DNA of 64,000 bases. Origin: Craspedostauros australis. Its lineage: Eukaryota; Bacillariophyta; Bacillariophyceae; Mastogloiales; Achnanthaceae. Positions 27,513 through 63,989 of the stretch are shown piece by piece. The notes beneath the pieces are model-generated. The model saw nothing but the letters and a program-made list of their open reading frames with translations. It made no database searches and had not been told where the DNA came from. Position numbers and translations under genes: made by a program. The stretch spans positions 186,001 to 250,000 of the forward strand of contig JAMXDE010000006.1 in assembly GCA_026770025.1 (NCBI GenBank), given 5' to 3'. Positions within the stretch are counted from its first letter, which is position 1, and each line of letters begins with the position of its first letter.

Positions 27513-27550
27513 TTATCCCTTAACGACCCAACGCCCAATAATTGGGCAAT
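27513..27550 (+). repeat. piggyBac-like left terminal inverted repeat
   Basis: Starts TTATCCCTTAACGACC and contains a near-palindrome, GCCCAATAATTGGGC (27533-27547). The reverse complement aligns with the right end through TTATCCCTTTACGACC and GCCCATATTATGGGC after a 6-nt gap. Confidence 0.82.
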
Positions 27551-27680
27551 AAAATTTTATAATCGGCTATTCCAACTTTCGACCCCAACGCCTACAAGTG
27601 GGAACCTCGTTTCTTTACATATTCTTAATCCTCTCGAGCTCCTCTTTCCAACCATGCTATCACATTTATATGTCTGTTAC

Positions 27681-27685
27681 TGTCT
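27681..27685. repeat. Copia A target-site duplication, left
   Basis: TGTCT, matching 44368-44372 directly outside the other LTR. Confidence 0.9.
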
Positions 27686-28446
27686 AGCGAGAATAGAGGG
27701 CAAATGAAGTCCGGTTGTGTCCGGCTTTGCCTTCCAGTGTCGGACTTTGGCAGGTCAAAAGGGGAAGTGAAACTGCCAACGTCAGCGCGGTTAAACGTAG
27801 TGTGACCACGAACGTAGATGAGACGATTGAGAATGTGTTTTGAGTTGATTTGGTGGTTGTAAAGCTTGAGTTTTTGTAAGATTGTTGTTTTTATGAGATT
27901 GTTTTGGTTGAAGGTTGGAGAGGAAAACGAGATGGGCTGGTCATCACACTGCTCTGCTGTTGGTTGTCGCTGTTCATGGTCTTGTACATTTGAAAAATTG
28001 CTCCACAATCCCCAGGCGATGAAACCACGATGCTTCATCGCTCTTGGCAGGTTTGAGAGCTGATTCTCCAATTGTTGGGGTGAAGGTGCGAGTGTTCCAT
28101 GTCTTAGTCTTGTTCCAATTTTGCAGGATAGTCTTGCTTTTGATCCAAGACCGGCACATCCTGCATGGAAGATGTCAGTTTCATACATATGTAATCTTGG
28201 AACACATGGCAAAGAGGCAAGTGAGAAGCATCAACTGTGCATGCAGGATGAGCCATGCACTTGTATTCTTGCAGACAGATGCCTTCACATATGTAATCTC
28301 TTTTGGAGGTAGAGTGCCTGTCCATTTGTTGCTCAATCGTGTGTACTGGTGGTAGTACAGACAATTCGGTCACCGGTCAATGGGGGCATGAAGGGAAAAT
28401 ACCAATTTTCAGCAATTTTTCAGTGACATCATGGTATATTGCAACT
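27686..28446 (-). repeat. Copia A 3' LTR
   Basis: 761 bp, same as 43607-44367. On the element strand the LTR begins AGTTGCAATATACC and ends TATTCTCGCT, so its ends are AG...CT rather than TG...CA. Confidence 0.95.
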
Positions 28447-28455
28447 CTCCCTCTC
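28447..28455 (-). other. Copia A polypurine tract
   Basis: GAGAGGGAG on the element strand, directly abutting the 3' LTR; expected plus-strand primer, and independent support for the LTR edge. Confidence 0.75.
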
Positions 28456-28513
28456 GACAAGCAATGGGACCCGTATCGTGAAAAACCTCTTCTTCTTCAA
28501 ACCATCTCACCGT

Positions 28514-31500
28514 TTACCATCCCATGAGCAATTTGCGAAGAGACTCAAATATCTCCCGCACTGAGCCCTTGGTAAAGATGTCGGCGATTTGTTCTGCGGA
28601 TGCCACGCGCTGGATCTTGATGAAGCCCTCCTTCACCCAGTACCAGAAGAAATGCCACTTCACAAGAAAGTGCTTGGTGCGATTTGTGATGTGATGCTTC
28701 GTTGCGAGTGAGATACACGCGTTGTTGTCTTCAAACACGGTGCACTGGAGATGCGTGAGCAACTCCTGCTTGAGTCCGGTGCGGGCGGCGACCTCCCGAA
28801 TGAGCTGTTGTAGTGGAATGAGGGCTCGCATTGCCATTGATAGCGCAGCATATTCGGCCTCAGTTGTAGAGAGAGCTATCTCGGTCTGCAGCTTGGACCG
28901 CCAGATTAGAGGACATCCTCCAAGGATAATGATGTATCCAGTACGCGACTTGACTGATGTAGGATTATCGTCGGGCTCTCGATGATGTAGCCCAGCAAAA
29001 TCAGCATCGACGTAGCATTGCAGGTCCAGCTTGCCAGATGGCCGGATGATGGTGCCTTGTGCCTTGGTTCGCGCAAGGTACCGCACGATGGTCTTAAGCG
29101 CCCTGGCGTGGGATTGCTTGGGAGAGTGGCTGAAGCGTGCTGCTTGGGACACAGCAAACGCAATGTCTGGCCTTGTGTTGGTTGCCAAGTACAGCAGCAT
29201 ACCGATGATAGACCGATAGTTCCAAGATTCCTTCATCGCTTCTCCATCCGGATCACTACCGAGAGCTGCTTTGGTAGCAGGAATCCAGTTTGGGTTGCAC
29301 GCTTCCATTCCAGTTGCCGCGATGATCTTATCGATCAGTCCTTGCTGAGACATGTGGATCGATCCGTCGCGGTTCTTATCCAGTTTGATTCCAAGGAACT
29401 CGTTGAACGTTCCTTCCTTGGTCAGCTCGAAGCCGCGTCTGGTCATTGACTGGATGAAATCGTCGATGTCCTTCTCGTGTGGTGCTGCAATGCCTGCGTC
29501 GTCCACATATAGTGCCAGCATCATCCCAGGGCGCAAGAACAGACAGGGGTCCTGCTCGCTGGCCTTGAACCCTTCAGCTGTTAGTGCTCGCAGTAGGTGC
29601 TCATGCCAGAGCCGAGGGGCCACTGTCAAGCCATATAGGCTCTTTCGGAGCTTGAGACATACATTGGGTCCATTGGTTGACCAAAAGCCCCGAGGTAGGT
29701 GGATGTAGATGTCTCGATGGATGGCGGCTTGGACGAAGGCGCTCACAAAGTCGATTGACACAGTGACCCATCCAAGGAGAATTGCGGTGATTAGGAAGAC
29801 GCGGACCGACGGCCAAGCGACCACAGGAGCAAGAGTGGATTCCGTTTCGTCCACAAGGCCACCTCGAACGCAGAACCTGGCCTTGTGCTTCTTGATGGAT
29901 CCGTCAGGTCGGCGCTTGCGACGGAACACCCAGGTACCCGGTGCAATCTTGCCAACTGCTTCGGCCTTGCTGACCTCGACCCATGTGCCCTTGGAGACCA
30001 AGTCTGTGACTTCTTTCTTGGCTGCTTCCATCCATTTCTCTCTGTCTTCGTCCTTCATAGCTTCATCAAAGGAAAGGGTGTCGGGGTCTGTTGGTGATGC
30101 TTTGAAGCTGCTCGGTCCCTCGCTCAGCTCCAGGTGGCCGTTAGACATCAGGAAGACGGCTTCGGATCCTGAGATGGATCTGCCAGATGGGTCGGATTCG
30201 CCGTCCTCATTCATCGTCAGAAACGCATATTCCTCTGCTCCGTTGGTGTCGCAGGCGGTCATGGATGGATCTGCGAGCTGCGGGATGGAGTTGATCCACA
30301 GGCATTGCTCAACGTCATCTGGATCATGGTCGCTGGTGTCTTGTTCAGCGGAATCGGGCATGTTGCTGTCGGGGTTGTCACTGGACCTGGAGGCATTGGA
30401 TTGGGAGTTCTCTTCGCCATTGGGAGAGACTCGAGGCAGCCCTTCCGGAGGATCTATATTGTGGCCTGCAGCTACCTGAGTCCACCAGTCTCTGAGCTCA
30501 TCAAAGTCAAAGTTGGTTGAGTATGCGTCAAGTCCGTAGTGCTCAATGATGTGAAGCGCGGTGAGGAGATTTGCGAGTTGATCGATCTCATTTTGCAAGT
30601 CCTGAGGCAGAGCGAACTCCTCTTCCTGTTGGTCGTCTCTCCTGTCTGGATCTCTCCCATCGTCTTGTACAGCCATGTGCACCATGATTCGATCTCCTCC
30701 TTCATCGATATCATCATTGTCGCTCCAGTCTTGCTGCAGCAAGCGACCATGTACTGCGTAGATGGTTTCAGACATGTCTGCGATCTGCCAGCGAAAGTGG
30801 TTGTCCGGCGAGTCGTAGAGAGCCAAAGTGGAGAGTGCAGTCCTGATCATATCGCAGGCAGCTTCTTCAGCGGCAGTCAAGCGGGCTCTGGCATTGCTGT
30901 CCACTTGTGCGATGTGTGGATTGATACGTCCACAGGAGTCCTGTTTGAGTTTTTCAAGCTCGGACATGGAAGTTGTCATGTGGATTGCTGCTTCCTCAAT
31001 GCTGTGCAGTGGTTCAGTGATTGGGCTGTTGCTTCCGTTGGCTCCTTTCAGGAGTTCAATCGCTGAGAGAATCGAGCTTGACAAGTGGGCGGCCGTCACA
31101 GCATCAATGGATGGTGAGGTCTGGTGAATTGGTTGGCAGACGAAGGCCTGAGCCATGCCACCCATCTGGCTGTATTCAAGGCGTTGTGGAGGAGCTCTCT
31201 TTCTGGGGTTGGATCGTCTTGCTTCAATCCGTGCCGATCGACGGACTGGTTGCTGCTGTCGATTTCGTCTGCGACGCTCCCTCTGTTGAGGTGCTGGGTT
31301 CGATGCAATTGGAGATGTTTCTGGCTGAGCCTTCGCTGAGCTAGCATCAGGTGTCTCCACGCTGGGTCTGTCATGGTCCATGGTGTCCTGATCGTCAGAT
31401 GGGAGTGGTATGTTGTCGTTGTCGTCACCCTTGTCGTCATGAGCAGCCTCCCTGCGCGATGGTGGGACTGAGTCTCGCAAGTTGGCCTTCTCCATATTGT

Positions 31501-34500
31501 TCTGGCCTTCTCTTGGTGCATCAGTTGCAGCACTTGTTGGTTGAGCTGTTGGTGGTGCAGAGACTTCATCCGGCACTGGTGCAGTATCTGATGGTGATGG
31601 TGGGAGCTCCGGTCCAAGTTCCACAGGAAGCGGCTCTGATGGTCGATGATCCGCATTTGCTTGCTCTGCGAGTTGGCGATTCAGATCCTGGTCATGGCTG
31701 TCTTGCTCCTCTGTTTCCTGATCCTGCTGCTCGAGGCGTTCCAAATCTTCTTCATCAAAAGGGAACTTGTACTCGGTATCTCCAAACAGATTCCTCCATT
31801 GATCCGAGTTATAGTTGGGAAGGTTGGATGGATCCGAAGGCACTGTGGCAAACCAGTCGTCAAACACCACATGAAATTGAGGTGTGATGCTTCCAGTCTT
31901 GAGATTCAGAACCAGTGGGACGGTAGAGGAGTGCTTCTCGGAGAGGCCGACGTGCACAAAACGATCGCTCCGGGCCTTCCATTTTGGAATCTTCTTCCCA
32001 TCTCCAACTCTGTGATCCAGCACATAAGTGGGGCATCCCCAGACGTGTAGGTTGTGAACATGTTTCTGTGGGAAGCGAATTCGGGCAAGGATGTCGAAGG
32101 GAGAGAGGCCGTTCGCGAGGTTTGGCAGCCGATTGAAGATGAATGCGGAATGACGAATTGCCATGGGCCAGAGTGGCACGACGTCCAGTTCGGGCCAGTG
32201 CAGAGTGGCATGGAGCATCATGGTTCGAGCGCTTGACACAACGGTACGAATGCTTCGTTCGGCGATGCCGTTGTGGTGATGCGCTCCGCGTCCTGCATAT
32301 CGATGGGATTGATGGAAGTGTCGAAGGTGGTCAGCATAGTCTGATGAGGTGAATGCCCTTCCATTGTCGCTTTGGTATTGTTGGACAACAATGCCGAGAT
32401 CTCGACACATGCTCTCGAACTTCTCCTTTGCTCTGATCATGTCTTGAGAAGATGTAGACAGGACTGGCTCAGCGAAGATGAATCCTGAAGCATGGTCGAC
32501 GAATACGATGCCGGCTCCGTACATTTCGTCATCGCTCCCTTTTCCATATCCCGAGAAGAGTCGTCCCTTTCCACCCCCTTCAAAATGATCCACAGAGACG
32601 AGTTGGCCAGGCCGAAGAATACCGAACTTGATGGCTCCCTCTCGATCACGTACTGGTCGGTGCAGATGGCCCGGGCTTGAGCGACAGACTTGTTTCCCAA
32701 ACTGGCATGCTGCGCACTTTGGAAGTGTGGCGAGGCGGGAGGCGCTTGCTTGTAGCTTGCGTGCGGCTTCGGTGTGCGCCAGGGTTCCCGAACGAAAAAG
32801 GTGCTGGATCTTCCGCATGTCATTGTGGCCCAGGCGTTGGTGCCAACGCAGCAGCTCCTTCTGTGGTTCGGACAGGTTGCGGTTGGCAGAGGAAACAGTA
32901 GTGATGGTTGCATTGAGGGCATGTGGAATGTGCTCGGTCAATGACTTCATGTTGTATGCCTTGGAAGTTGGAAGCTTGTTCTTGGGATTGATCTCGATGT
33001 TGATCTCTCCCTCTCTTCCTTGGACCTTCCACCTGCCATTCACATACTGCAGCTCGCCTGGATACATTCTTTCGAACACAGAGGTGCTGATGATCTTGGC
33101 GTTGCTTCTTGGCACATAGTATGCCGGGAATTTGAGACGGCGAATGTTTCCTCTCGTGTCTTGGATGCCCCATTCCACGGTTCCCACCAAGTGGTCAGAT
33201 CGTCCTCCAAACAGCCCTGTCAGTTTCTTGGCTTGGTTTCCAATTGGCCTTCTGGGTTCGGAGACGAAGTCGGACTTGTCATGTGAGATACAGACGGTGG
33301 ATCCGCTGTCCCAAATGACATCACATATCATCTTGGCTGGAAGGACGTTGGCGAGCTCGTCTGAGCTGTGACGGACAGCCGAGAAACTCGTGATAGAGGA
33401 TGGTCCATCGTGTGTGCACACAGAATTTGACGGAGGCGCGTCCTCAGGCTTGAAGTAGGTGCTGAGGATCTGGGCCAGTCTGCTGGTTTGTTTCTCGGTG
33501 AGTCGCTGTCGCTGAGCAGGAGCAGGAGCATCAAATACCATCATTCGCTGACGCTGATTGCGATGTTTCTTCTTGGATGGTCCTTGCACTTCATGTCGAC
33601 GAATAGGAACGGCTCTGGTTCCGAACCTGGCACCATGGCTGATGGAATTGGCTCTTGGCCGTGGGTTGGAGAAAGCCGTGCTTCTGAATCTGTGCTTGTT
33701 CGGGTTGTTCTCAAGACCGATCACACGATGACTGCGTCGCCTCAACCCAGCTGCTCTTGCTCTGGGATGCATGTTGGTTGATGCATGCATTGCAGATACT
33801 GGAGGGTCGAAGCGAGAGCGGTGGTGGCGGAGACGAATCGGAGCACGACGATGAAAGTTGATCCAATCCTTGGGTTGGGCTCGGTCACGACGGCGATCTT
33901 TCTTTTCCCAATAGGCTTCGCAGCGGCGTTGCCAACGAGGCTTGGGAACTGGACCATCAGGGTGGCGAGGCATGTCATGGTGCTTGCGTGCCAGGTATGT
34001 TGCAGTGACCATCCATGCTGCAATCGAGGCTGTCTCCCACCCATGCATGACTGCAAAGATGAGGACCTGGATGAGCAGTGGAATGAAAAGAGGAAAGGCA
34101 CCAATGAGGAGAGCCAATGGACCAAGGTAGGCCTGGATGATTTGGAACCACCCAGATGGACTTTCTTCCATCACCTTGTAGACGTGCCATTTGGTGGAAT
34201 CGAATGTGACTGTGTTGGCAGCGGTCTCGCTCTTGTTCTTGTTCTTGTCCTTGTCCTTGAAGTCGCTTCTGTGCTCGCTGGTGCCATGGGAGGTGAGCCA
34301 ACGCTTGCACTTGGCACACCACTTGAAAGTGGAGCTCCTGACAACCTTCTGGTGCGGTTCACCCTTGGAAGGGGGAACAGAACGCCAACTGGTGTTGGAA
34401 GAACCCTTTTTCGCGTTGTTGGAACCCTTCTTGCCTTTGCTGCTGTGGTTGAAGCCTGCACCTTTCTTCAGATTGGGGCAGTTGGCCTTGACATGACCAG

Positions 34501-35890
34501 GTTCTCCGCAGTTGTGGCAGATGATGGGCGTCTTTCCACCATTCTGCATCAGGGCCAGCGCCGTGCTTTCGTCGATCTCGATGCCTCCATTTTCTCCAGA
34601 GAGGAAATACCCAGCGTTGCTGTTCTTGCGATTGCGCAAGTAGGAGGCTGCATGCCATTGTCCAGCATGAAGCTCTTGCTTGTACAGGTCGGTGGCAAGA
34701 TTGCAGACATCACGCCAGTGAAGGCGATCCTTCAAGATGCGTCGGTCCTTCTCGGCCTTGGTGCAGCACCCGATTTGGATCAGCACTTCTTTGAGGTTGC
34801 CGAGTTTGCTGTGGAGACCAAAGCGGTAGCGCTCCCCGGATGTGCCAGAGCCACCAGCAGAGAGAAACTTGGTGAGGATGTCCGCAGTGAGGGCGTGGTC
34901 ATATTGGCCAGCATCTTCGAGAACTTGGGCGTCCTTGCGGGTGTCATCAGCAAACTTCTTGATGTTCTCACCGGCGTAGGTCTTGGGAGTGCGACGGCGG
35001 ATGTTCTGCTTGATGCGATCATACTTGTCGAAAGTGGTGGTTCGTAAGTCCTCGATCAGCTCCATCCAAAGAATGACAAAATCCTCGCGTTGATCCGGAT
35101 GGACCCGCGCCAAGATGTCGTCCTTCAGGCTTGGCTGGAGAGAGTTGAGGAGAAAGCGGCAGGCAGTGACGTTGTTGCGGCGGTCGTACTCATCAAAATG
35201 GCTTGCCATTTCGGTTGCTTCTTCCATGATGGTCTTTTGGTTGAAGCGGTACGGATGGGCAACGACACTGGTCGTGTCTTCGGGGTCGGATGGCTCCTTG
35301 AGGTAGGAGATGGTGTCGAGCCCTCTGGCTTTGAGTTCGGACATGAAGTCGCGCTGGAAGGCTTGGAGATCGCTCTGGCGGTGGAACTTGGGTTCAAGGC
35401 CCTTCTCCATGTCGGGTTGGCTCTTGACATCGGCTCCGCTTGCAGTGGAGCGCTTCTGGAGAACGTAGAGGTAGGTGTTGGGCTCGTCAACAAGCCCAGA
35501 CCAGTCAGCTTTGGGCTTTCCCCCGGTGAAGGGGAACCAGTTCTTTCCCACCTTGACGATGTTGCCCATCACCGGCTTGGTTGGGCGATTGGCGAGTTCA
35601 CGTTCCGTCTCGGCTGCGGTGCGGCCCAGTTCGAAGATTTCCTGGGAGGTGTTGACACCAGATACCTCGGTTTGAAGGAGACGCTCGTGGGCTTCCTCCC
35701 TCTTAGTCAGATTCGCGAGTCGTTCTTGAAGGACTTGGCTCGCTTCGTTCAGTTGTTGTTGCTGGGCCAGAAGGCGGGCCTGCATCTGGCTGAGTTGTTC
35801 CAAGGTTGCTGCTTGAGTGGCAGCTACCTCAGCTTGAGTTGTGGTGGCTCCACCTTGGGTGACGGTGGCCTCCGGTTGATCATCCGCCAT
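28514..35890 (-). CDS. Copia A Gag-Pol polyprotein
   Basis: A single 2458-residue frame from ATG 35890. Gag: Gln-rich coiled-coil N-terminus, capsid-like region, and a CCHC knuckle, CHNCGEPGHVKANC (458-471). A hydrophobic segment (YLGPLALLIGAFPLFIPLLI, about 582-601, and following residues) sits before the protease, which is unusual. Protease: VIWDSGSTVC with Asp 861. Integrase: HQRLGH...CAACQFG zinc motif, then VDH (D1101), SDNGRAF (D1175) and NGIAERS. A Pro/Ser/Asp-rich linker precedes the RT. RT: FDEAMKDEDREKW, DFVSAFVQA and YVDD (2128-2131). RNase H: YVDADFAG, STTEAEYAALS, DNNACI and ADIFTKG. All catalytic residues are present without frame breaks. It should be processed by its own protease into capsid and enzymes that make cDNA in cytoplasmic particles and integrate it. 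Confidence 0.96.
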   Translation of the reverse strand: MADDQPEATVTQGGATTTQAEVAATQAATLEQLSQMQARLLAQQQQLNEASQVLQERLANLTKREEAHERLLQTEVSGVNTSQEIFELGRTAAETERELANRPTKPVMGNIVKVGKNWFPFTGGKPKADWSGLVDEPNTYLYVLQKRSTASGADVKSQPDMEKGLEPKFHRQSDLQAFQRDFMSELKARGLDTISYLKEPSDPEDTTSVVAHPYRFNQKTIMEEATEMASHFDEYDRRNNVTACRFLLNSLQPSLKDDILARVHPDQREDFVILWMELIEDLRTTTFDKYDRIKQNIRRRTPKTYAGENIKKFADDTRKDAQVLEDAGQYDHALTADILTKFLSAGGSGTSGERYRFGLHSKLGNLKEVLIQIGCCTKAEKDRRILKDRLHWRDVCNLATDLYKQELHAGQWHAASYLRNRKNSNAGYFLSGENGGIEIDESTALALMQNGGKTPIICHNCGEPGHVKANCPNLKKGAGFNHSSKGKKGSNNAKKGSSNTSWRSVPPSKGEPHQKVVRSSTFKWCAKCKRWLTSHGTSEHRSDFKDKDKNKNKSETAANTVTFDSTKWHVYKVMEESPSGWFQIIQAYLGPLALLIGAFPLFIPLLIQVLIFAVMHGWETASIAAWMVTATYLARKHHDMPRHPDGPVPKPRWQRRCEAYWEKKDRRRDRAQPKDWINFHRRAPIRLRHHRSRFDPPVSAMHASTNMHPRARAAGLRRRSHRVIGLENNPNKHRFRSTAFSNPRPRANSISHGARFGTRAVPIRRHEVQGPSKKKHRNQRQRMMVFDAPAPAQRQRLTEKQTSRLAQILSTYFKPEDAPPSNSVCTHDGPSSITSFSAVRHSSDELANVLPAKMICDVIWDSGSTVCISHDKSDFVSEPRRPIGNQAKKLTGLFGGRSDHLVGTVEWGIQDTRGNIRRLKFPAYYVPRSNAKIISTSVFERMYPGELQYVNGRWKVQGREGEINIEINPKNKLPTSKAYNMKSLTEHIPHALNATITTVSSANRNLSEPQKELLRWHQRLGHNDMRKIQHLFRSGTLAHTEAARKLQASASRLATLPKCAACQFGKQVCRSSPGHLHRPVRDREGAIKFGILRPGQLVSVDHFEGGGKGRLFSGYGKGSDDEMYGAGIVFVDHASGFIFAEPVLSTSSQDMIRAKEKFESMCRDLGIVVQQYQSDNGRAFTSSDYADHLRHFHQSHRYAGRGAHHHNGIAERSIRTVVSSARTMMLHATLHWPELDVVPLWPMAIRHSAFIFNRLPNLANGLSPFDILARIRFPQKHVHNLHVWGCPTYVLDHRVGDGKKIPKWKARSDRFVHVGLSEKHSSTVPLVLNLKTGSITPQFHVVFDDWFATVPSDPSNLPNYNSDQWRNLFGDTEYKFPFDEEDLERLEQQDQETEEQDSHDQDLNRQLAEQANADHRPSEPLPVELGPELPPSPSDTAPVPDEVSAPPTAQPTSAATDAPREGQNNMEKANLRDSVPPSRREAAHDDKGDDNDNIPLPSDDQDTMDHDRPSVETPDASSAKAQPETSPIASNPAPQQRERRRRNRQQQPVRRSARIEARRSNPRKRAPPQRLEYSQMGGMAQAFVCQPIHQTSPSIDAVTAAHLSSSILSAIELLKGANGSNSPITEPLHSIEEAAIHMTTSMSELEKLKQDSCGRINPHIAQVDSNARARLTAAEEAACDMIRTALSTLALYDSPDNHFRWQIADMSETIYAVHGRLLQQDWSDNDDIDEGGDRIMVHMAVQDDGRDPDRRDDQQEEEFALPQDLQNEIDQLANLLTALHIIEHYGLDAYSTNFDFDELRDWWTQVAAGHNIDPPEGLPRVSPNGEENSQSNASRSSDNPDSNMPDSAEQDTSDHDPDDVEQCLWINSIPQLADPSMTACDTNGAEEYAFLTMNEDGESDPSGRSISGSEAVFLMSNGHLELSEGPSSFKASPTDPDTLSFDEAMKDEDREKWMEAAKKEVTDLVSKGTWVEVSKAEAVGKIAPGTWVFRRKRRPDGSIKKHKARFCVRGGLVDETESTLAPVVAWPSVRVFLITAILLGWVTVSIDFVSAFVQAAIHRDIYIHLPRGFWSTNGPNVCLKLRKSLYGLTVAPRLWHEHLLRALTAEGFKASEQDPCLFLRPGMMLALYVDDAGIAAPHEKDIDDFIQSMTRRGFELTKEGTFNEFLGIKLDKNRDGSIHMSQQGLIDKIIAATGMEACNPNWIPATKAALGSDPDGEAMKESWNYRSIIGMLLYLATNTRPDIAFAVSQAARFSHSPKQSHARALKTIVRYLARTKAQGTIIRPSGKLDLQCYVDADFAGLHHREPDDNPTSVKSRTGYIIILGGCPLIWRSKLQTEIALSTTEAEYAALSMAMRALIPLQQLIREVAARTGLKQELLTHLQCTVFEDNNACISLATKHHITNRTKHFLVKWHFFWYWVKEGFIKIQRVASAEQIADIFTKGSVREIFESLRKLLMGW

Positions 35891-36043
35891 CCTTCAAAAG
35901 CTGCGCTTGAAGAGGTTGCGGATTTCCTGATGAGCAGCTGAGCTGCTGGTTCGCAGATGTTCTGCTGGAGTATCGATCGATGGTCGCAACTGCGTTGCGA
36001 GTTGTGATTGCTGAGCTTCAATCAGCAGGTGTCTGGGAGTGAG

Positions 36044-36153
36044 GCAACTGTGTTGCGGGCAGTCAGCTGCACTGCTGCGGGTAGATCAGTGGGTGCCTGT
36101 GGCAGGAGCAACTGTGTTGCAAGCAGTCAGCTGCGCTGCTGCGGGTAGATCAG
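36044..36153 (-). repeat. Tandem repeat in copia A leader
   Basis: Two 46-bp copies (36044-36089 and 36108-36153, 64-bp period) differ at about three positions, with a weaker third copy near 36178. Each contains short self-complementary words (CAACTGTGTTG, GCAGTCAGCTGC). Lies between primer site and gag, where packaging signals occur. Confidence 0.8.
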
Positions 36154-36207
36154 CAGATGATCGGCTGATTATCGTCGGAGCAACTGCGTTGCTGGCGTTC
36201 GGACAGC

Positions 36208-36212
36208 TGAAC
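36208..36212. repeat. Copia B target-site duplication, left
   Basis: TGAAC, repeated at 43416-43420. Confidence 0.9.
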
Positions 36213-36844
36213 TGTTAGAACGTAATCGTAGATGGGTGTGAAGGATACCGCACCGAGAACGTAGAGTGATCAAGTCGTTGTTGTTGGTGAGGAGAGTGTT
36301 TGTTTACTGTGTTATTCGTATGGTAGTATGAAGGCAGGCGAGCTCACAAGATGGATTCTTGAGAACTGTGAGCATGAGAGAGACATGACAGGTCTCATGC
36401 AATTTGCAAGTGAAATTAACACGGAGACAACACGGCAAATGTGCGTGTTACTGCGTGAAGATGAGGTGCAAAAGGTCAATGAACAAAACACCGCGATAGC
36501 CCGTGTTGTGAATTACATCTTCTCACGATGTTGCTAGTAGTACGATCACACGATTGATCGTATTCACTTGAGAAGGTCTTGGTAAGATTCGCACATGTCG
36601 CACCCAAGATCCAAGTCTGTCCTGATTGGGCAGATTGGTTCATCTTGGCAAGAAATCAATTTCCGCGACATTTTGGAACTGTGTTTGACGGGAAAACGAT
36701 TCCTGCGACGCGAAATGCGACACAAATTGGACACAACGGATTTTCGACCAAAATTTCCGTTCGGAACGGAAAAGGTAAGAAAAGTGGATATTTCTGATTG
36801 GTCGACGGGTGTCGCTATTGTTAGAGATTTAGCGTGCGCTAATA
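36213..36844 (-). repeat. Copia B 3' LTR
   Basis: 632 bp, matching 42784-43415. On the element strand it begins TATTAG and ends CTAACA, so only the last dinucleotide is canonical. Confidence 0.95.
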
Positions 36845-36853
36845 CTCCCCAAA
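36845..36853 (-). other. Copia B polypurine tract
   Basis: TTTGGGGAG on the element strand abuts the 3' LTR; short but in the expected place. Confidence 0.6.
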
Positions 36854-36868
36854 GCGTGTCCCGGACAT

Positions 36869-43415: not shown

Positions 43416-43420
43416 TGAAC
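43416..43420. repeat. Copia B target-site duplication, right
   Basis: TGAAC, matching 36208-36212. The sequence from 43421 to 43606 resumes the copia A leader. Confidence 0.9.
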
Positions 43421-43590
43421 TGTCAGTGGGCGGCTTGACTCTTGCTTCCTGCAGTGAAGCTCACAGGGTCCAAGCCACGGATGCGGGTCGCTGTGGCAGC
43501 GACTTGGTTGGATGAGGAAGTCTGAGACTTCGTGGGATCGGTTCTTGCGCTATTGATGAGGCTCTCTGTCGAATCTTGACTTCAGCGTAA

Positions 43591-43606
43591 GACCAGGCTC
43601 ATAACC
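43591..43606 (-). other. Copia A primer-binding site matching initiator tRNA-Met anticodon arm
   Basis: The plus strand reads GACCAGGCTCATAACC and abuts the LTR exactly. GGCTCATAACC is the anticodon loop and flanking stem of yeast-type initiator tRNA-Met (loop CTCATAA, anticodon CAT), again ending at tRNA position 40. Drosophila copia is known to prime from the 5' half of the same tRNA. Confidence 0.75.
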
Positions 43607-49170: not shown

Positions 49171-49177
49171 CCCTTCC
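49171..49177 (-). other. Copia C polypurine tract
   Basis: GGAAGGG on the element strand abuts the 3' LTR. Confidence 0.65.
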
Positions 49178-49246
49178 ATTGTTGCATCGACAACACATCA
49201 CTCACACTCTCACATTTTTCATAATTTTCGCGTCCTCTCCTTTCCG

Positions 49247-54196: not shown

Positions 54197-54744
54197 TCCG
54201 TGGTAGTGCAGTAGGTTGGTGAGTTTGATTGCAAGAGTGTGTCTTAGTCTTTAGAGCTGTATGAATCCAAATGAGACTTTCAATTGGATTGTGAGCATGT
54301 GATGTGCAGCATCCATTATAGTTGGATCTGCAACATCTCTATTAGTAGTAACATAGTGGAGCGTTGAGTCTCCGTACGTGCAATCATCGCGGTGTCGATG
54401 TTGCCATTTCCGAGAGGAGACATCAATTTCGTGACGGTCGGAGAGAGAGTTTGTTGTTCACTCTCTTCCGATCAATTTGGGGGAACAAGGTTCATCCAAC
54501 GGTTTGACCCGATTGTCCGTTCAGGACAGGTCATGTCACGCCCATAAGTGGCGTGGGATGGCCCGATCGCCCAAACCCAAATTCAGCGGACACGCGACAT
54601 CGTCTTAAGTAGAGCACGATTCGAGGGTGGGACCCCATCCCACCGACATCGAGTCACGCTTCAATCCCGCTCAAACTCTGAGCAGTTGGTCATTTGATTA
54701 ACTCGACTAAATCTTAACACGACTAATAGGAATACTAGTTTGAG
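54197..54744 (-). other. Copia C gag-pol spacer
   Basis: 548 nt with no continuous frame. On the element strand there is a TACTAAT-like word followed by ...TTGCAG in mid-spacer (about 54350-54330), resembling a branch point and acceptor. A GTAAGT donor-like hexamer lies just inside the pol frame (54175-54170). No complete donor-acceptor pair can be assigned from sequence alone. Confidence 0.5.
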
Positions 54745-55854
54745 CTAATATGCCGCGGCGTCTTCGGGTAGCCACATTGGTTCCTCGACCATCACGAGGG
54801 CGACGTCATCTGTTCCGTCCATACCGTCGGTGGCCACGTTGGCGGCGTCGGCTGCTCTCATCGCTGCCTTCAACTTGAAGCACTCGAGGATCTTGTGTCC
54901 CTTCTTACCGCAGTACTTGCAGTTTCCGTTGAACTTAGTCTTGTCCTCAGTATCACTTCTCTTGTTCTTCTTCGTGGGCTTGCCACCTTTGTTCTTAGGC
55001 GCAGAGCGGCAGTCTGCCTTCTTGTGCCCGTAGGCGCCACAGTTGCGGCAGTGGCCCTTGAAGCCACCAGTGGCAGCGAGTGCCATTTCTTCCTTGCTAT
55101 TGTTCTCGCGCTTACTACCTCCTTGCTTGATGTGACGTGCGTCGTAGGTTGCACTCACTGCTTCGCGGATGTCTTCGATAGTCATCTGCTTTTCAATGTT
55201 CTCGAACTTGAGCTCGATGAGCTTCACATCCATTTTGTAGTCCCTTCCGAGAGCGTTGAGCACGAGCATGTGGTACTGCTCCATGTCCATGTTAACTCCC
55301 GCGTGCTTGAGGCGGTTACGGATCACCTCCATTTCGGTGAGGAAGGTATCCGGGTGTTCGCCTTTCTTCAATCGCATCCCGTTGAGTTGAGCCAACAACT
55401 TTGCCTTCATTGGCGCAGTGCGTTGCTCGTAGATGCGCTCGAGAGCTTTCCACGCCTTACGAGGGTCTCCTCCCTCGTAGATGTTGCTCTCGCATCCCAA
55501 CACAGCCATGAAGGCGACATCGCCTTCGGTGGTTTCATGGTTGATTGCCATGGTCAGTTCTTCAAACGCGTACTTGGCCAGAGCCTTCTTGTACTCCGCC
55601 TTCTCCTCGGGAGACATGGCAGATAATTTCGAGGCCTTCAGCTTCTTCTCTTCGCCTCCCACGATGGAGGCGAGAGGAGAGGGGTCAAAAGCCTTGGTCT
55701 TCACAATCACTTCACCCAAGTCCTTGAGATACAAGTCTCCGTAACCCTTGAGGTTGGCGCGGGCGAGGAACTTCGCACTCCAAGCTTTCCAGGAGGATTG
55801 CTTGCCGTCGAACATGATCATGTAACAATCGGTCTTACCGAGGAAGGACGTCAT
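54745..55854 (-). CDS. Copia C Gag protein
   Basis: Capsid and nucleocapsid precursor that packages element RNA. 369 residues from ATG 55854, stop TAG. The N-terminal domain (MTSFLGKTDCYMIMFDGKQSSWKAW, then KFLARANLKGYGDL) is typical of the copia capsid family; residues to about 240 match its helical layout (KAWKALERIYEQRT, LLAQLNGMRLKKGE). Two CCHC knuckles follow: CRNCGAYGHKKADC and CKYCGKKGHKILEC. The C-terminus ends VMVEEPMWLPEDAAAY; the PMWLP motif recurs twice at the start of the separate pol frame. No in-frame read-through joins the two. Confidence 0.92.
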   Translation of the reverse strand: MTSFLGKTDCYMIMFDGKQSSWKAWSAKFLARANLKGYGDLYLKDLGEVIVKTKAFDPSPLASIVGGEEKKLKASKLSAMSPEEKAEYKKALAKYAFEELTMAINHETTEGDVAFMAVLGCESNIYEGGDPRKAWKALERIYEQRTAPMKAKLLAQLNGMRLKKGEHPDTFLTEMEVIRNRLKHAGVNMDMEQYHMLVLNALGRDYKMDVKLIELKFENIEKQMTIEDIREAVSATYDARHIKQGGSKRENNSKEEMALAATGGFKGHCRNCGAYGHKKADCRSAPKNKGGKPTKKNKRSDTEDKTKFNGNCKYCGKKGHKILECFKLKAAMRAADAANVATDGMDGTDDVALVMVEEPMWLPEDAAAY

Positions 55855-55933
55855 GGTGATGATGGTGAGAGTCGTTTGTTGCTGTGTTGGTGATGATGGA
55901 AACGTAGGATTTCAATCGTAACGTTTCGAAACG
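55855..55933 (-). other. Copia C leader and presumed primer-binding region
   Basis: 79 nt. The sequence abutting the 5' LTR is the palindromic CGTTTCGAAACG. No 3'-end tRNA complement is seen. In the register used by copia A and B it would place TTCGAAA as an anticodon loop (Ser CGA), but the stem does not pair well, so the primer is left open. Confidence 0.4.
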
Positions 55934-56615
55934 TGTTGGAAATCCGGGGTTAGTGTTAGTAAGAACTAATTGGTTGTTAGATCGTACTATTCAGAACTGT
56001 GAGCTCATTCTCTTCAGATCCTTTGCCTTTCGTTTCTCCTGTAGCATCTCCTGCAGCAGCACCATGTCATACTGTTGCATTCATGCATCTTATCATCATG
56101 AATCATCGCTTGCATACATGAGATCGCATCCGCAGGCATCCTTTGTCATGCACATCGTCGTGCATATCCGTAGGCATTCTTTCCATGCACCTCGTCGTGC
56201 ATATCCTTATTCTACATTCCCTGCGGTACGATTCCACAGTCTTGCGTTTCGCTCTTGATCTCCTGACACCAAACTTTACGATTGGCGTCATGATTGATGT
56301 CATGGTTGATGCCCTTTCTGAGATGTTCTAGTCCGTGGCTGACACGTGCCATGATCTCCAGATGGGGTGATCATCAATGTGTCGGTCATCATCTTCCTTC
56401 ACATGATTTAGATGTCGTGGCCTTTTCTTGATTCATACAGGACGGGCTTGTTTGCTTGGTAAGACTGAGGTCATTCCCGTGTGATTCGTGTCGTGGGTGG
56501 AATGGACAATATTCAATGGTGTGACGAATAATATCCAAAGGTGTGACAAATAATGTTGGGAGTTGCGGCAATCATGGGTATCTTTCCGACAGAGTCGTAC
56601 CCTCGATTCCTGACA
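55934..56615 (-). repeat. Copia C 5' LTR
   Basis: 682 bp; partner of 48490-49170 with about 19 differences including a one-base indel. Confidence 0.94.
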
Positions 56616-56621
56616 GGCTTT
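56616..56621. repeat. Copia C target-site duplication, right
   Basis: GGCTTT, matching 48484-48489. Confidence 0.85.
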
Positions 56622-59295
56622 GCATGATGTTGTTGTCGTCGACGTACGCGGTGCCCATGATGGTATGGCCATTGCAGGTGATGGGGTCGGGGAGGTTGAG
56701 GCTGTAACCTTTGGCTCGCATGCTATCGATAATGGCGGAGCTGATGAGCAGCCATCCTGTTGGTGCGGATCCGAGCCCTTGGACCAGTCCTTGGAGGTAG
56801 TTGCGGCGCTGCTTGCCGGAGTAGGACGAGACTGATGTTCCGGCTGACGTGCGGATGCGGTGAGTCATCGACTGGAGGGTGCGAAGAGTGCTCGTGATGG
56901 GCGCTGTAGGCACACCCTGTTGTTGAAGGGCCAGGCTGAAGATGGGGTGGGCAATTCGGTCGTAGCACCCTTTTGCGTCGTTGGAGCATATGGCGTAGTG
57001 AGAGCCTGTGATTCTTGCGATGTCGTCGATGAGGACCGTGTTGAGCAGCACTTCTTGGGCTGTGTGTGCCTTGCGGCTGCCGAACTGTTCCGTTGCCAGG
57101 GTGAGATTGGATTCTGCATGCGACCTGGCTTGTTTGCCAAGGAGTCGGTTGTTCATGTTGAAGTCGCCTTCCATGAGCCTGATGGTCCTCGTCTTGGTCA
57201 CTGCTAGGTTGCCTGGCTTTTTCCGGAGTTGTATGTCGATGCACTGTTGCCATCGTTTGAGGCTGTATCCTGTGCGGTAGGGGATCTCTCTCATTATGGA
57301 GTCGATGGTTGCCAGGGCGGGGATGGTTGCGTTGACCTTCCAGCACCCGAAGTGCATTCCGGAAGGGCCCGATGACATGCTTTCCTTGATGCGTGCCCAT
57401 CCTCGCGAGTGGTCTTCCTGGCTGATATGGAGGAGGTCAGGGGGCCACGGTGTGGCTCGTCGGGGCCGCCGGAGTGAGCGAAGGGTGTCGCTGGTGTTGT
57501 TGTGCAGCTGCGATGGGACGATGCCGTTGAGTATGGCGGTGGCGGCTGGGCTGGATCCGAATCGCCCCAGGCTGCGTTTGAGCGGTTGTTGGCAGACTTC
57601 GGCTTGCCACGCTTGGCTGTACTTGTCAACGTTGGTCTTGCAGCACGCTCGGGTCACTTCTATGCCTGCTGTTAGCAGATTGTTCTCACCCCCTGGGCCA
57701 TCATCTATGGCCATGGACACTTGGGCGTCAGAACCATCTGCCTGCAGGGACCATCGGATTCTTCGGTAAGTTGCTTTGGTCTCTTCTCGTTGTAGCAGCT
57801 GGGCTCGGTATTTGGCTGTGTCGCCTCCGGTGTTGGTCACCTCGTCCTCGTCATCAGCTAAGAATGACCTCCGGTGTTCAGTGGCGTGCTTCTTCTCTTG
57901 TTGGTATGCCTTCCACGCCGCGTTGCGGTGCCGGTGCATCTCTGTCATTGTCATGTGTCTCGTGCATTGCTGGATGTGGGCCTTCTTCTTCGCCTTGTCG
58001 ATTATGCGTCCTTTGATGTTGTGGCCTTGTCTCCTCTTGATGCTGAGAGTCCAGAACTGGTGTTCCCACCTCAGCTTGGATACTATCGGTGAGAAGGGCA
58101 CCTTCCTGGCTTTGATCTTGCGGCACTTGCGTTCCGCTTGGAGTATGGCCTGTGTTCTGTCGTTGTCGATTTTCTCGAGTTCCTGAATCTGTAGCGGTGT
58201 CATCTGGTTGTTGTCGACTGCGTTGTTCAGGGATTGCGCCCGCTCTAGAAGATGTAACGAGTTCGCTTGGCTTTCGTATGCCTGTATGTATCTTCTGACT
58301 GTGGTGGGTTGGCTGAGTTGGAGTCGTCGCCCTCGGAACGGTGGGGTTGGCTGCTTGGTGGGCCCGAATAGGTGGTTCGTGCTGATGTCTAACCACACCA
58401 TGCGGTGGTCCCAACTGCCGTACGGTGTCAGCCCCATTTGATTGGGTTGGACGTCGTTCGTGGCCCAGATTCCGTCGATGGGGGTCCGTTGTCGGTTTCT
58501 GATCATGGTGGCGTACGGGTGTCGTATGTTGCTGGTGTGGTGTTCTTGGAGGCCTTCGGCAAGCAGCATATTGGTGATCTTGGACCGTCGCACGTCCATG
58601 TTGACGTCGCCTCCGATGATCACTGTCTCGCCTGCTTGTTGCCATTGTGCGATTTGTGTTTGCAGGTCGGTGATGAGTAAATCGATTGGGTCCAGTGTCG
58701 ACTGGCGCTGAGCGGCTTTAACGACTTGTTGGTTGTAGATGGTTCCAGAGGTTTGGGTGGATTTGGTGGGGACGTAGACTGAGGCGATTCGGACCTTGAT
58801 GCCCTGTCGTCCCTGGAGTAGTACACTTGCCCATCTGCCGCACTTTTCGGGGTTGTTGCTGCTGGAGAGGATGCGGCCTGCGATATTTCCGTGGGAAAGT
58901 ATGGCGGTGCCACCCCATTGTCGTGGGCTGTCGCTGTCTGTGTGACAGTGTGCTGTGGCAATCTTCGCCATGCGTAGCTGTCTGTCAGCTCTGCGGGCAA
59001 GCATGGAGTCCGATGGGGTCTTGCTCCAGTTGATGCCCACTTCCGTTATCATCAGTATGTCAATGTGGTGTTGGCGTATGGTCTGCCATAGGTCGTCGTT
59101 TTTGGGGTCCGTAGGGTCGGTTGGTAGGCTTCCTACGTTCAGGGTGGCGATCCTGATTTGGGTGTTGGCCTTTTGGTTGGTGGTTTGGCCGAGGTGTTGT
59201 CGTTGGAGATTCGATTCATCCGAACTCGAATTTCCGGGTGTGTTGGGTCCGTCGGTGTCCGGGCTGGACTGTGCCCGTCTGTGGCTGCCTATCAT
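56616..59295 (-). pseudogene. LINE-2 ORF2, N-terminal half (endonuclease and RT palm)
   Basis: Starts at ATG 59295, which overlaps the ORF1 stop. Endonuclease: IATLNVGSL, ITEVGINW, WGGTAILSH, VIIGGDVNMD, TPIDGIWATN and WDHRMVWLDI, preserving the Glu, Asp/Asn and terminal His of the AP-like nuclease. RT: ATEQFGSRKAHTAQEV, CSNDAKGCYDRI (catalytic Asp), GLVQGLGSAPTGW and GTAYVDDNNIM. After MQS the frame runs into the copia C LTR and stops near 56572. The half up to the insertion has no stop. Motif wording (NDAK-CYDRI, QG-G--P--W) is shared with LINE-1a, so the two are relatives. Confidence 0.88.
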
Positions 59296-61907
59296 GGCGA
59301 CTGGTCTCCATTGGGCTGCGGAGGGTCGCCGTCGGGTTTGCCAAGTTCTCGTCGGAGTGCTTGCACCTGTGCCAGTAGTTGTGCTTCCCTTGTCTGGGGT
59401 TGGTTGTATCTGGTGTTGGCGCCGGTACGCAGAATTCCTTCTGTGGTGTGGGAGGTTGTGTTGGGGAGGTTTGGTGTGTTGGATCCGCTGTCTGCTTGGT
59501 CTCCTGTGGTCAGATTGGGGGCAGCTGTGTACGCTGAGTCGATGGACCTGTTGGTGGTGCCGATCGTCGAGTTGGGATTGAACAGGCTTCGATTGTCGAG
59601 AGCTGCTGTCCTGTGACTGGTGGGCATCATATCGGGGATATTGGTGATGATCACGCTGGCGGGGAACTCTTCATCCGCGATGTCTTCCAGATTGTGCGTG
59701 TCTGGGGAGGTGTAGTCGTTGGTTGCCGGGTCGTACACTATGTTGAGGCTGGCAATCCATACCTCTGGACTGAACCACTTTTTGGCTTTGGGGCCTACTT
59801 TGTGTCTGGCAATCGCGGGCAGGAGGCTCATGAAGTGCTTCGCTGGTTCCAAGTATTCGGGGAATGAGTGCGCCACGACTTGGTCGTCGGTGCCGCGGGC
59901 TCTGTCCACACTGTGGAAGATCCGTTTGCCTTCGTTGGGTGTCTCTCGGAGTATGAGTTTGCGGAGAGTGATGGAGCGGTTGTCCTTGCCTTTGACTTTT
60001 TTGTCCAGGTGCAGTACTCCATCGGAGTCCAAGTACTCAATCACGGCGAGTATGGCTTGGTGTTTTGCCATGAGGCCGTCGCGGAACTCGCTTTTCTTTC
60101 GCGACATTTGCTCAAACTTCTTGTCTGGTAAGAAACGGAAGTTGGTGGCTCCTGGTCTTTCCTCTCGTGTGTTGAAGAGATTTGCGACTTCTTCGACCGC
60201 AGTGTATGCTTGGGACCTTTCAACTTCCAGCTTAACCGCTCTCCAAGGTTGGACGGTCCAGTGTCGTTTGCCTTCTCTGTACTTTTCTCTGGTTTCATCA
60301 CTGACCTGGATGATGTTCTTCATCTTTCCGCCCACTCTGATGTCGCTGTTTGTTCTTTGGAAGCTCCTGTTGATGATCTCCACTGTGCTGTCCACGTCTG
60401 TGAATCCTCCAGAGTATAGTAGGAAGCCGATCTCTTTCACCTCTTCTGCGTCTTGGAGCTGGGCTTTGTACAGTCCCTCATGCTCGTTGTAGTAGTATGG
60501 GTTGAGCTCCGCGTTGCGGTCGGCCGTGATGTCGAAGGGGTCATCCCTGGTGGTGATGCGGACTTTCGCGTACGTGATTCCTGTTGCCCCGGATGGCGCT
60601 CGCAGTCCTTGAAAGAAGGTTCTGAGGTCCTCCATTCTTTCTGGAATTTGTCCTGAGTGGGCAATGTGGGGACCTGTGTTGGCCGACTCTCTCCATGGGA
60701 GGATCACCGCTGTGGGATCGATTCTTCTGACCTGCTGGAACCACCGCTTGATATGTTCTCGCACTGCGGCTGTGGTGTCATCTTCGGTTCTGTCGACGTT
60801 GAGTTTGATGGTGAATCTGGTTGTGTGCTCGTGTCGTGGTGGTGCTATCTTTGCCTGGGATGTGTTGGATTCCTCGTCCGAGCTGACCGAGTTGTCGTCT
60901 GTGGACGGTCTGCGGTTGGCAGAGTTTCTTGGGCCATTTCTGTGTCTGGTTACTCCTGAGTCGGTTGACGAATCATTGCTGCTTGTCGTTCCTGAAGATT
61001 GCGAGTTTTTCGTGCTGTTCTGGCTGACTCGTGGCATGTCGGTTGTCTGTTTTGGAGATTTGAACCTAGTGCGTTTGGACGGCTGGCGGCTGGTGTATGA
61101 CTCGCTGTCTGTGCTGATGGATCCCGTGGTTGTGTTGATTGGCATGGCTGCGAATGCTTGGCTTGTGGGCATCCTGGCTGTTGCGCTCGTTCCTGTGCCT
61201 TCCGTCTGGAGTGTGAGGCCCTCCATGGCGTCGTTACGGATGTCGTTGTCTGCGAGAGGTGCTGTTCCCAGATCGTAGTTGGAGCCCATGAGTCGATTCG
61301 CAGCCTTCCATACTTTGACTGCTCTTGCCGTTCGTACCGTGCCGTCGTTGTTGAGATGGACTTTGAATACCTCGTGAGGATCGGTGGATGCAATGTTGAT
61401 GACGAATTGCAGGAGCCTCATTCTTGTGGGGTCTCTGTTGGGCAACGTGATGGGACCGAACGAGGTGACCCTTCCGTCCACGAGGTCTCTGAAGAAGTGC
61501 TCCCACTGCTTGATGGTCGGGTTTTCGCGGTCGGCTGTCGCCTCGTCTTTATTTTACCAGATTGCTCTGGCTCTCCATGCTGCTTTTGCTGATCTGTTGA
61601 TGGATCCTTCTCCTGTTGCTCGTGCGAATGGCGTGATGTCGATGCCAGTCTTGTTGGCCGCGGTCTTGAACGTGCTGGATCTTGGCTTGTAGGCGATGGA
61701 CACGTCGTCTGGGTCGTTCTCCTCGGTTCCTCCATCGTAGGGGATGGCTTTTTTTGCTTGTTGTCGGGCGCGATGATGGTTGCTTGTATTGTCCTCTCTT
61801 GGGGTCTCAGGTTTGTCGGGTTCCTTGGTGGGAGGTGGCAAGGTTGGGCCATCTTCTGCCTTCGTCTCTTCGCGGTGGCTCGTGTTGGGTTCGTCGTTCG
61901 AAGTCAT
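59292..61907 (-). pseudogene. LINE-2 ORF1 with one in-frame TAA
   Basis: ATG 61907 (MTSNDEPNTS) opens a 117-codon stretch ended by TAA at 61554-61556. The same frame then runs open for about 750 codons to TGA 59292-59294. The region after the stop (TIKQWEHFFRDLVDGRVTSFG) corresponds to HEKSWGDILRERNLLTRD in LINE-1a ORF1. Later shared stretches include TNFRFLPDKKFEQ, GLMAKHQAILAVIEYLDSDG, NRSITLRKLILRE and GPKAKKWFSPEVW. An Asp/Ser-rich middle and a Thr/Asn-rich C-terminus are otherwise featureless. It would make only a short peptide unless the stop is read through; decay is the simpler view. Confidence 0.82.
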
Positions 61908-61986
61908 TTTGTTCTGCTGTTGTTTGTGTTGTGTTAGGGTATTAATTAGTTTTTATTTGGTTTGGTTTGTCGGAGTTCCGAAACTA
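61908..61986 (-). other. LINE-2 5' UTR
   Basis: 79 nt from the element start to the ORF1 ATG; AT-rich with CAACACAA words. No other signal seen. Confidence 0.6.
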
Positions 61987-61999
61987 TGCCACTCCTCCG
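61987..61999. repeat. LINE-2 target-site duplication, right
   Basis: TGCCACTCCTCCG, identical to 45441-45453. Confidence 0.92.
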
Positions 62000-63823
62000 G
62001 TACCTCCTCTTCATCCAACAGTTCCTCCTCCATACTCTCCCCTACTAATTGGAAATCACAAACCAAGATTTTCTGGCATCTGGAATGTGAAGACAACAGT
62101 GGACAGCCTTCTGGAGATCATATTTCCATCTACATTGATGGATAGAATCCAACGGCATTCCAACAACCATCTACAGAAGAGCAGCAGCATGGCCCCTGCC
62201 ATCACAATTTCCAAGCTTTACATATTCCTGGCAATGTATTACTACATGGGAGTATGGACTGCACCATCCAAGAGGGACTCTTGGCATGCCACCCATGTAT
62301 CTGTCCCATCAAACACACTCATGACTCACCTGAGCAGGGACCGATACAACATCATCTTCTGCCACATCCACTTCACTGCAGAGCTTCCTGACTATGAAAA
62401 CGGATCAACAGCATCTTCTGCCACACCCATCCAGGTCAATGTTGATGAATATGACATGCAAGCATGTGCAGGCAGTACAACCATGGCATCAGGAAGTGAA
62501 TTGTCATCCATCAGCACAGCTTCATTGAACATCCACACTACAGAGTCAAACGATTCTGAAGCCTCGGATACAAAACCACCAGCACGAAAGAAGGCCAAAA
62601 CGGACAGTGACAGTGTTCAGTTGACCCGATCATGGTATCGGAAGGTGCAGCCACTCCTGAATCACACGAATCGAGTGTCGAAACGCATCTGTACAAGACC
62701 AGGAGCTGCATGTGCCATTGACGAAATGATGGTGCAGTTCAAAGGTCAATCAGCCCAGACACATCGGATGAAGCAGAAGCCAATCAAAGAAGGCTTCAAA
62801 TTCTTTGCATTGTGTTGTTCAAGCACTGGGTTCATGTACCATATCCTACCTGTAGCTTGACTTGACAAGACCACACGAATAAACAACACTGTGGAGGAGT
62901 TGATGAATGAACTTGACTGAAGCCATCATCATGTTGTCACCATGGACAACTTCTTCACCACCAAGACAGTTCTGCAGCGGTCGAGACAGATGGGCATTGG
63001 CATCTTGGGCACAGCACGCAATCGAAACGGATTCCCTCCAAAGGCAGTGAAGGAGGTGGAGGATGACAGGTTCAACAGTTTGTACATCTGGACCGAACCA
63101 AATGAGCATGTGGCGACTCGGTGGGTGGACAACAACGTCGTCCTGATGGTGAGCACGGTTCACTATGGAAATGAGGCGGTTGTTCATGATCGTCACAAGC
63201 CCAGAGAGACACGGATCAACAAGAAGCATCTGAAGACAGTGTGGGGAGATGATTGGAATGCGAGAATTCGCATTCCCAAAATGATTGATGACTACAATCA
63301 CTGGAAGGGCAGAGTTGACCGATGTGACCAGCTCATATCATATCATCGTCCAAACATGTGGTGCAGGAGGATATGGATGCCACTCATGTTCCCTTTCCTG
63401 GATATGCTCAGAGTGAACGCATGGATCAGTCATTGTCATCTGGCAGGCGAAGAGGAGAGGTTGCCCCAAAAAGAATTCACACTGGAGATGGTGGAATCCC
63501 TTGTGAGGAAGTTGTCCACATCGAGCTCAAGGGGCACAAAATCGTTTTTGCAGGTACCTAGACTCATAGTGACAAGGCACAGAATGAGCACAAATGCCCC
63601 AACCCTCCCAGAAGCGAGATTGATGGGAGAAGACAGAGAACATGAGCAAGTTATTGTGAAAGGAGATTGGGCAAAAACGTGCAGAAAATGTGCATTTCTG
63701 GCTGCAAATGCAAGACTTTCTGGCAAGGAGGGAACCAACCCTAAACGGGTTACCAGGATGTGTAGCTTCTGCCAAGTCTATGTCTTTAGGGATCATTGGG
63801 ATATATACCATGGAAAGAAGTGA
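62000..63823 (+). pseudogene. piggyBac-like transposase, DDE domain, two in-frame TGA codons
   Basis: Continues the transposase in the frame of 44887-45453. Resembles the DDE_Tnp_1_7 (piggyBac) domain: LYIFLAMYYYMGVW, then AIDEMMVQFKGQS (first Asp), VTMDNFFTTKTVL (second Asp) and NHWKGRVDRCDQLISYH (third Asp). The C-terminus has CRKC...CSFC...DHWDIYH, the Cys/His-rich zinc domain common in this family. TGA codons at 62858-62860 and near 62918-62920 lie in one unbroken frame between the first two catalytic regions. Both could come from CGA by a C-to-T change. The final stop is TGA 63821-63823. The enzyme once excised and reinserted the transposon at TTAA-like sites; this copy is inactive. Confidence 0.88.
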
Positions 63824-63861
63824 AACAGACACAAACAAAAAATCAGTTGTTTCCCACGATA

Positions 63862-63939
63862 ACACTAGTTGTGAGGGGTACAGGCTTAGGTTTCACGTAG
63901 GCCCTGGTAGGGAAAATTCGTTCAAAAAACAACTAGTGT
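63862..63939. repeat. Subterminal inverted repeat of piggyBac-like element
   Basis: ACACTAGTTG (63862-63871) and its reverse complement CAACTAGTGT (63930-63939), 58 bp apart, internal to the right end. A possible transposase-binding pair; no left-end counterpart was found. Confidence 0.65.
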
Positions 63940-63945
63940 CATTAT

Positions 63946-63989
63946 ATCGCCCATAATATGGGCGTTATGCTCCGGTCGTAAAGGGATAA
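63946..63989 (-). repeat. piggyBac-like right terminal inverted repeat
   Basis: Reverse complement begins TTATCCCTTTACGACC and includes the near-palindrome GCCCATATTATGGGC (63949-63963); pairs with the left end at 27513. Eleven bases remain to the window edge. Confidence 0.82.

Follow-up and report, generated by a model that had tools for sequence, protein, structure and literature searches.

How five transposable elements came to lie one inside another at a single locus of Craspedostauros australis, and which target the outermost of them used, are the questions raised by the stretch of DNA analysed here (the window), 64,000 nucleotides that make up C4:186001-250000 of a 74.8-Mb assembly in 90 contigs. 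A five-element nest had been claimed in the initial annotation of this sequence, and all five elements were found together with all four of the target duplications given for them. The outermost is a piggyBac-like DNA transposon on the plus strand (27517..63985), identified by its sister copies, its ends and a DDE_Tnp_1_7 domain. Within it lie copia A (27686..44367, minus strand), identified by its LTR pair and domains, and a LINE (45454..61986, minus strand), identified by its endonuclease, reverse transcriptase and 13-mer duplication. Copia A in turn contains copia B (36213..43415, minus strand; LTR pair and RVT_2) and the LINE contains copia C (48490..56615, minus strand; LTR pair and domains), so that the nest is three deep, with two branches. 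Protein searches placed RVT_2 in copia A, B and C, an endonuclease and RVT_1 in the LINE, and DDE_Tnp_1_7 in the outer element. Comparison of the window with itself, a check that had been proposed in the form of a dot plot, gave the same three LTR pairs (27686-28446/43607-44367, 36213-36844/42784-43415 and 48490-49170/55934-56615). Nested transposons are commonplace, and this nest is a routine one.

Each of the four inner insertions is bounded by its own exact duplication, as the initial annotation had it: TGTCT at copia A (27681..27685 and 44368-44372), TGAAC at copia B (36208..36212 and 43416-43420), the 13-mer TGCCACTCCTCCG at the LINE (45441..45453 and 61987-61999) and GGCTTT at copia C (48484..48489 and 56616-56621). 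A search of both strands of the window found no further occurrence of the 13-mer. Sister copies in the same assembly were used as empty sites for these junctions in place of raw reads, the set for the copia A and LINE sites being the 14 other piggyBac-like copies. All 14 are uninterrupted at the copia A site, 11 with an exact TGTCT, and all 14 are likewise uninterrupted at the LINE site, where one has the exact 13-mer and the others differ from it at 1 to 3 positions; a 3-base gap lies just past the site in sister copy C39. The copia B site is uninterrupted in the eight copia A copies examined, with TGGAC for TGAAC in each, and the copia C site in the five LINE copies examined, with a single GGCTTT (5/5). 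To judge by their sequences, the near matches to the duplicated words in sister copies fit with substitutions.

Because exact duplications and uninterrupted sisters were found at all four inner sites, sequential insertion is the sole reading found to fit, and the successive insertion at one locus that had been proposed is borne out. The nest, in whole or in part, might instead have arisen in assembly from repeats joined wrongly, and all five sequences (those of the three copia elements, the LINE and the piggyBac-like element) are indeed repeated in the genome, which invites misassembly. Wrong joins do not, however, yield four exact target duplications along with sister copies in which every site is read through without a break, and each of the three copia elements pairs its own LTRs, two of the pairs being identical. 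An artefact was rejected on the evidence of the uninterrupted sister copies and, judged from the sequence, is very unlikely. We are highly confident that the nest represents five ordinary transposition events at one locus, with the order across its branches taken from LTR divergence.

The order of insertion had been said to be readable without a clock. This holds within each branch, where nesting gives the piggyBac-like element, then copia A, then copia B, and the piggyBac-like element, then the LINE, then copia C; it does not hold for copia A against the LINE or copia B against copia C, which need the LTR clock because nesting gives two separate chains. The LTR pairs of copia A and copia B show no differences (0/761 and 0/632), while those of copia C show 18 in 681 with one gap (identity 663/681), a difference from both by Fisher test (A vs C, p = 1.2e-6; B vs C, p = 8.3e-6). 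Copia C would therefore be older than copia A and B if rates are equal and the LTRs free of conversion, as gene conversion between LTRs could give copia A and B a falsely young look, and the LINE is placed relative to copia A only through copia C. The insertions themselves, their limits and their order inside each branch are seen directly in the sequence. With DNA-level mechanisms drawn from knowledge of each family, the piggyBac-like element would have entered the DNA on the right of a MATE-bearing gene region by cut-and-paste transposition at a TATA site, doubling the central AT. The LINE would then have entered this element by target-primed reverse transcription, duplicating 13 bp and leaving an (AT)n tail, and copia C would have entered the LINE with a 6-bp duplication. 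Copia A would have followed at the left end of the piggyBac-like element and copia B within copia A, upstream of its long frame, each with a 5-bp duplication.

The LINE has its 3′ end at the left, with a short (AT)n tail, and is about 8.4 kb long without copia C. It carries Exo_endo_phos and RVT_1 domains, and the (AT)n end occurs with different flanks in all six other LINE copies examined. Endonuclease, reverse transcriptase, 3′ tail and 13-bp duplication are together those of an endonuclease-type LINE. The initial annotation called it 'LINE-2', apparently as its second LINE, the other being a frame with an endonuclease domain at 15624-21461, which is probably a LINE. That frame is flanked by two MATE transporter genes with MatE matches (12426-13993 and 25459-27026), which are 89.9% alike over 1574 bp. 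In the genome, 61 matches to the light-harvesting family PF00504 were recorded. For one such protein, the solved chains matched at E 1e-30 or better number five, four of them LHCI (9vfj), followed by the fucoxanthin chlorophyll a/c protein 8iwh. The many light-harvesting genes are those of a photosynthetic eukaryote and suggest an alga whose plastid is secondary, perhaps a diatom or relative.

Copia A is unusual in its ends. Its identical LTRs (27686-28446 and 43607-44367) run AG...CT, not TG...CA, and these ends lie directly at perfect 5-bp duplications in 13/13 of the other copia A copies read on both sides, out of at least 18 others listed. The element has a frame of 2459 aa at 28514-35893, left unbroken by copia B, which lies upstream of it. 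RVT_2 scored above its curated cut-off, and an integrase core before RVT_2 scored below (25.6 vs 32.6 bits). The ends do not exclude copia A from copia, since non-TG/CA copia families are known. One copia A copy, on C16, is inserted beside a CGTTTCGAAACG sequence.

The identical LTRs of copia B (36213-36844 and 42784-43415) read TA...CA in the sense direction and enclose a frame of 1912 aa at 36869-42607, in which RVT_2, above its curated cut-off, was the sole domain reported. Eight of ten copies of the copia B family have a target duplication and two have none. Copia C has LTRs at 48490-49170 and 55934-56615 with TG...CA ends; RVT_2 and an SH3 domain before it were above cut-off, and an integrase core was not reported. 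The single other copy of the copia C family that was read at both ends had no duplication, and 9/10 right ends were not at the predicted place. In the window, the duplications of 5 bp for copia A and B and 6 bp for copia C fall within the 4-6 bp expected of copia. The copia C leader beside the LTR (55922-55933) is the palindrome CGTTTCGAAACG.

Drosophila copia primes from a tRNA fragment cut in the anticodon arm. The leader of copia A beside the LTR has CCAGGCTCATAACC and that of copia B has TGCGACTGTTAATC, both in plus-strand reading, and the primer binding sites, at 43593..43606 for copia A and 42770..42783 for copia B (both minus strand), are complementary to 14 nt of the anticodon arm of host tRNA-Met and tRNA-Asn, respectively. 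Completed 17-mers were predicted from the leaders, each on the expectation that it carries on as the anticodon stem of a tRNA, and the genome was searched with them at no more than one mismatch, with reversed controls. The copia A 17-mer occurred three times and the copia B 17-mer five times, exactly in every case, while both reversed controls gave 0. Two loci examined from each set were tRNA genes according to ARAGORN, tRNA-Met (cat) for two of the three and tRNA-Asn (gtt) for two of the five. With the completed 17-mers hitting these genes, the primers of copia A and B are probably tRNA fragments cleaved within the anticodon arm, as in Drosophila copia.

Ends other than TG...CA have precedents. 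The CoDi copia elements of diatoms, which we liken to those found here by description, are recently inserted with LTRs of 153-844 bp, and 3/26 families lack TG/CA ends according to the part of PMC2806351 consulted; AG...CT may or may not be among these three. Among plants, an excerpt of PMC5659011 gives the non-canonical copia ends TA-CA (TARE1), TG-GA (Tos17), TG-TA (AcCOPIA1), TGTT and AACA. The ends of TARE1 are thus those of copia B, while copia A alters both ends and falls outside the plant types given in that excerpt. Since non-TG/CA copia elements are known in diatoms and plants, the copia A ends are a variant and not a new kind; AG...CT was not found in the copia-end literature searched, which does not show it to be unreported.

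Three segments of the outer element's own sequence survive (27517-27685, 44373-45453 and 62000-63985). Its ends, CCCTTAACGACC and GGTCGTAAAGGG, agree at 11/12 positions, and the inverted repeats start with CCC, as in the piggyBac superfamily, with 11/12 bases identical between CCCTTAACGACC and CCCTTTACGACC. A transposase remnant on the plus strand (62000..63823) consists of two open stretches in one frame, which run from stop to stop at 61946-62860, starting inside the LINE, and at 62921-63823, with in-frame stops between them. The two pieces match DDE_Tnp_1_7 at E 1.8e-19 and 1.3e-19. This copy is broken by its in-frame stops, while 6/14 of the other piggyBac-like copies have long frames through the transposase, and the natural frame in L041 matches DDE_Tnp_1_7 at E 9.6e-44, the best stretch covering profile positions 101-349. 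A phmmer comparison matched the transposase to piggyBac (6x67/6x68) and piggyBat (9c0f) at E 5.5e-13 and 2.3e-9. The three catalytic aspartates of 6x67, which we take to be positions 268, 346 and 447, align to D positions in the piggyBac-like transposase. A local alignment, itself weak, puts arginine at the place of Y283 and has the Y439 and N440 positions kept. In the known piggyBac structure, Y283 stacks on the target (PMC7351741, seen in part), and the predicted arginine at this position is only a lead.

An 8/40-bp minisatellite at 44609..44783 belongs to the piggyBac-like element, as sister copies indicate; it varies in length between copies, and in several it falls inside the long open frame. 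It had been considered as a LINE tail, which was rejected for this reason. In another piggyBac-like copy, L049 (C39:537800-542700), a copia B-family solo LTR lies within the transposase and has the 5-bp duplication TCCTA. There is also a second piggyBac-like subfamily (L136-L145), about 70% alike, of which 9/10 right ends seen have a common flank and are not independent, and which may be carried within a larger repeat. L136, the one member in which a left end is likely, reads CTATCCGTTCATGACC...CATGAAGGGATAG, in agreement with TAT...ATA, and was left out of the counts.

The initial annotation had placed the outermost element at 27513-63989 and given it no duplication. An outermost piggyBac-like element does lie there, but the span takes in target bases, and sister copies and empty sites delimit the element to 27517-63985. 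No TTAA flanks it. Both ends were read in 12 piggyBac-like copies, that of the window among them, and all 12 have TAT-CCCTT...AAGGG-ATA at their junctions; they represent 11 independent sites, as C76 and C15b have common flanks, and copies with TAT-CCC...GGG-ATA differ by up to 13% from the window copy. On the best reading, the site in the window is T-TATA-A, with the duplicated AT at 27515..27516 on the left and 63986..63987 on the right.

Joined-flank searches gave relatives without the element at two sites; the spanning matches listed, all of them read, number 13 at the first site and three at the second. The filled copy of the first site reads GGAGC-ATAT-CCC...GGG-ATAG-TTCC. Ten of the 13 empty relatives there have ATATAG, with GAGC and GTT-type flanks and scattered substitutions further out, and they include the closest by sequence (L118-L121 and L159, all ATATAG); L160 agrees with them in length but not in its letters, and L124 and L161 fall 2 bp short of what a duplicated AT predicts. 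At the second site, filled as GAG-TAT-CCC...GGG-ATA-GT, each of the three empty relatives has the longer length; TATA stands in one of them and CATA in the other two. The length expected from an AT duplication was therefore found in 14/16 relatives, and TTAA was absent from the junction in 16/16. On the best reading of these sequences, the target is TATA and the 2 bp duplicated are AT, and the offset at which this family joins its ends to the target probably differs from that of known piggyBac. Because the TTAA target with its 4-bp duplication, which marks the superfamily, was not found, the element is named 'piggyBac-like'.

The same letters can be parsed in other ways. If the element ended TCCC...GGGA between TA and TA with no duplication at all, filled and empty sites would read just as they do for CCC...GGG with a 2-bp AT, and sequence cannot separate the two. 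Two points from sources seen in part stand against it: piggyBac inverted repeats are reported to be best conserved in their opening CCCTT (PMC10813416), and cut-and-paste DDE transposons are said to duplicate 2 to 15 bp (PMC3408717), which leaves an absent duplication improbable, though the least so of the alternatives. The same ends with TA doubled would give an NTAN pattern, as is kept at PiggyMac-cut ends, and would suit both the free variation of the bases outside TA between the two sides of copies and the shorter length of L124 and L161. These are 2/16 relatives, however, against 14/16 of the longer length (ATATAG in 10/13 and L160 at the first site, 3/3 at the second), and the closest first-site relatives (L118-L121, L159) all have ATATAG. 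Doubling of TA instead of AT was thus held less likely, at 2 against 14 of the 16, and we consider the NTAN pattern slightly more improbable again than the lack of a duplication. Occasional non-TTAA duplications of other piggyBac elements have been ascribed to mutation in the portions consulted of PMC10813416 and PMC10140906, and the junctions of the outer family could likewise have changed secondarily in a former TTAA user. Against this, TAT-CCC...GGG-ATA is present in 12/12 copies, including some that diverge from the window copy by as much as 13%, and TTAA stands at the junction in 0/16 of the empty-site relatives, so that we regard secondary change as very improbable. A TTAA duplication for the outer element was rejected on the sister-copy junctions and empty sites, and the readings with AT doubled, TA doubled or nothing doubled all exclude one of 4 bp.

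With TATA and a duplicated AT as the best reading, the family both resembles and departs from known systems. In common with piggyBac of Trichoplusia ni (6x67/6x68) and piggyBat (9c0f), it has DDE_Tnp_1_7, the aligned aspartates and CCCTT ends; it differs from them in lacking the 4-bp TTAA duplication, for which the best reading puts TATA with 2 bp, and in the arginine that a weak local alignment places at Y283. Excerpts were the source for the piggyBac literature searched, in which no case of a 2-bp duplication was found; this is no proof of absence. PiggyMac of Paramecium, a domesticated piggyBac transposase whose 4-base overhangs keep only the central TA (PMC3408717, in the part seen), is, compared by description, likewise a piggyBac relative that departs from TTAA. 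PiggyMac is a host gene that cuts eliminated sequences, while the family described here is mobile and, on the best reading, has an AT core in TATA.

The nest puts in sequence the activity of five families at this locus, and its by-products, the target rule and the copia A ends, matter more, the target rule of the outer family being the part worth specialist attention. We put at about even the chances that a mobile piggyBac-like family has moved from a 4-bp TTAA to TATA with a 2-bp offset and that a copia integrase of this genome acts on CT-3′ instead of CA-3′ ends. If true, this would mean that the joining offset of the superfamily, which in the moth enzyme is said to be dictated by where the active sites lie, can evolve in a mobile element, and the relaxed site use of PiggyMac would have a mobile counterpart. 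The AG...CT copia A family, with near-identical copies and exact duplications, would offer a natural case of what an integrase needs at the DNA end. PiggyBac is a genome tool known for its strict TTAA rule and seamless excision, and a natural family with another target, a shorter duplication and long transposase frames still present in the genome would give structural studies a means of asking which residues determine the target and the offset.
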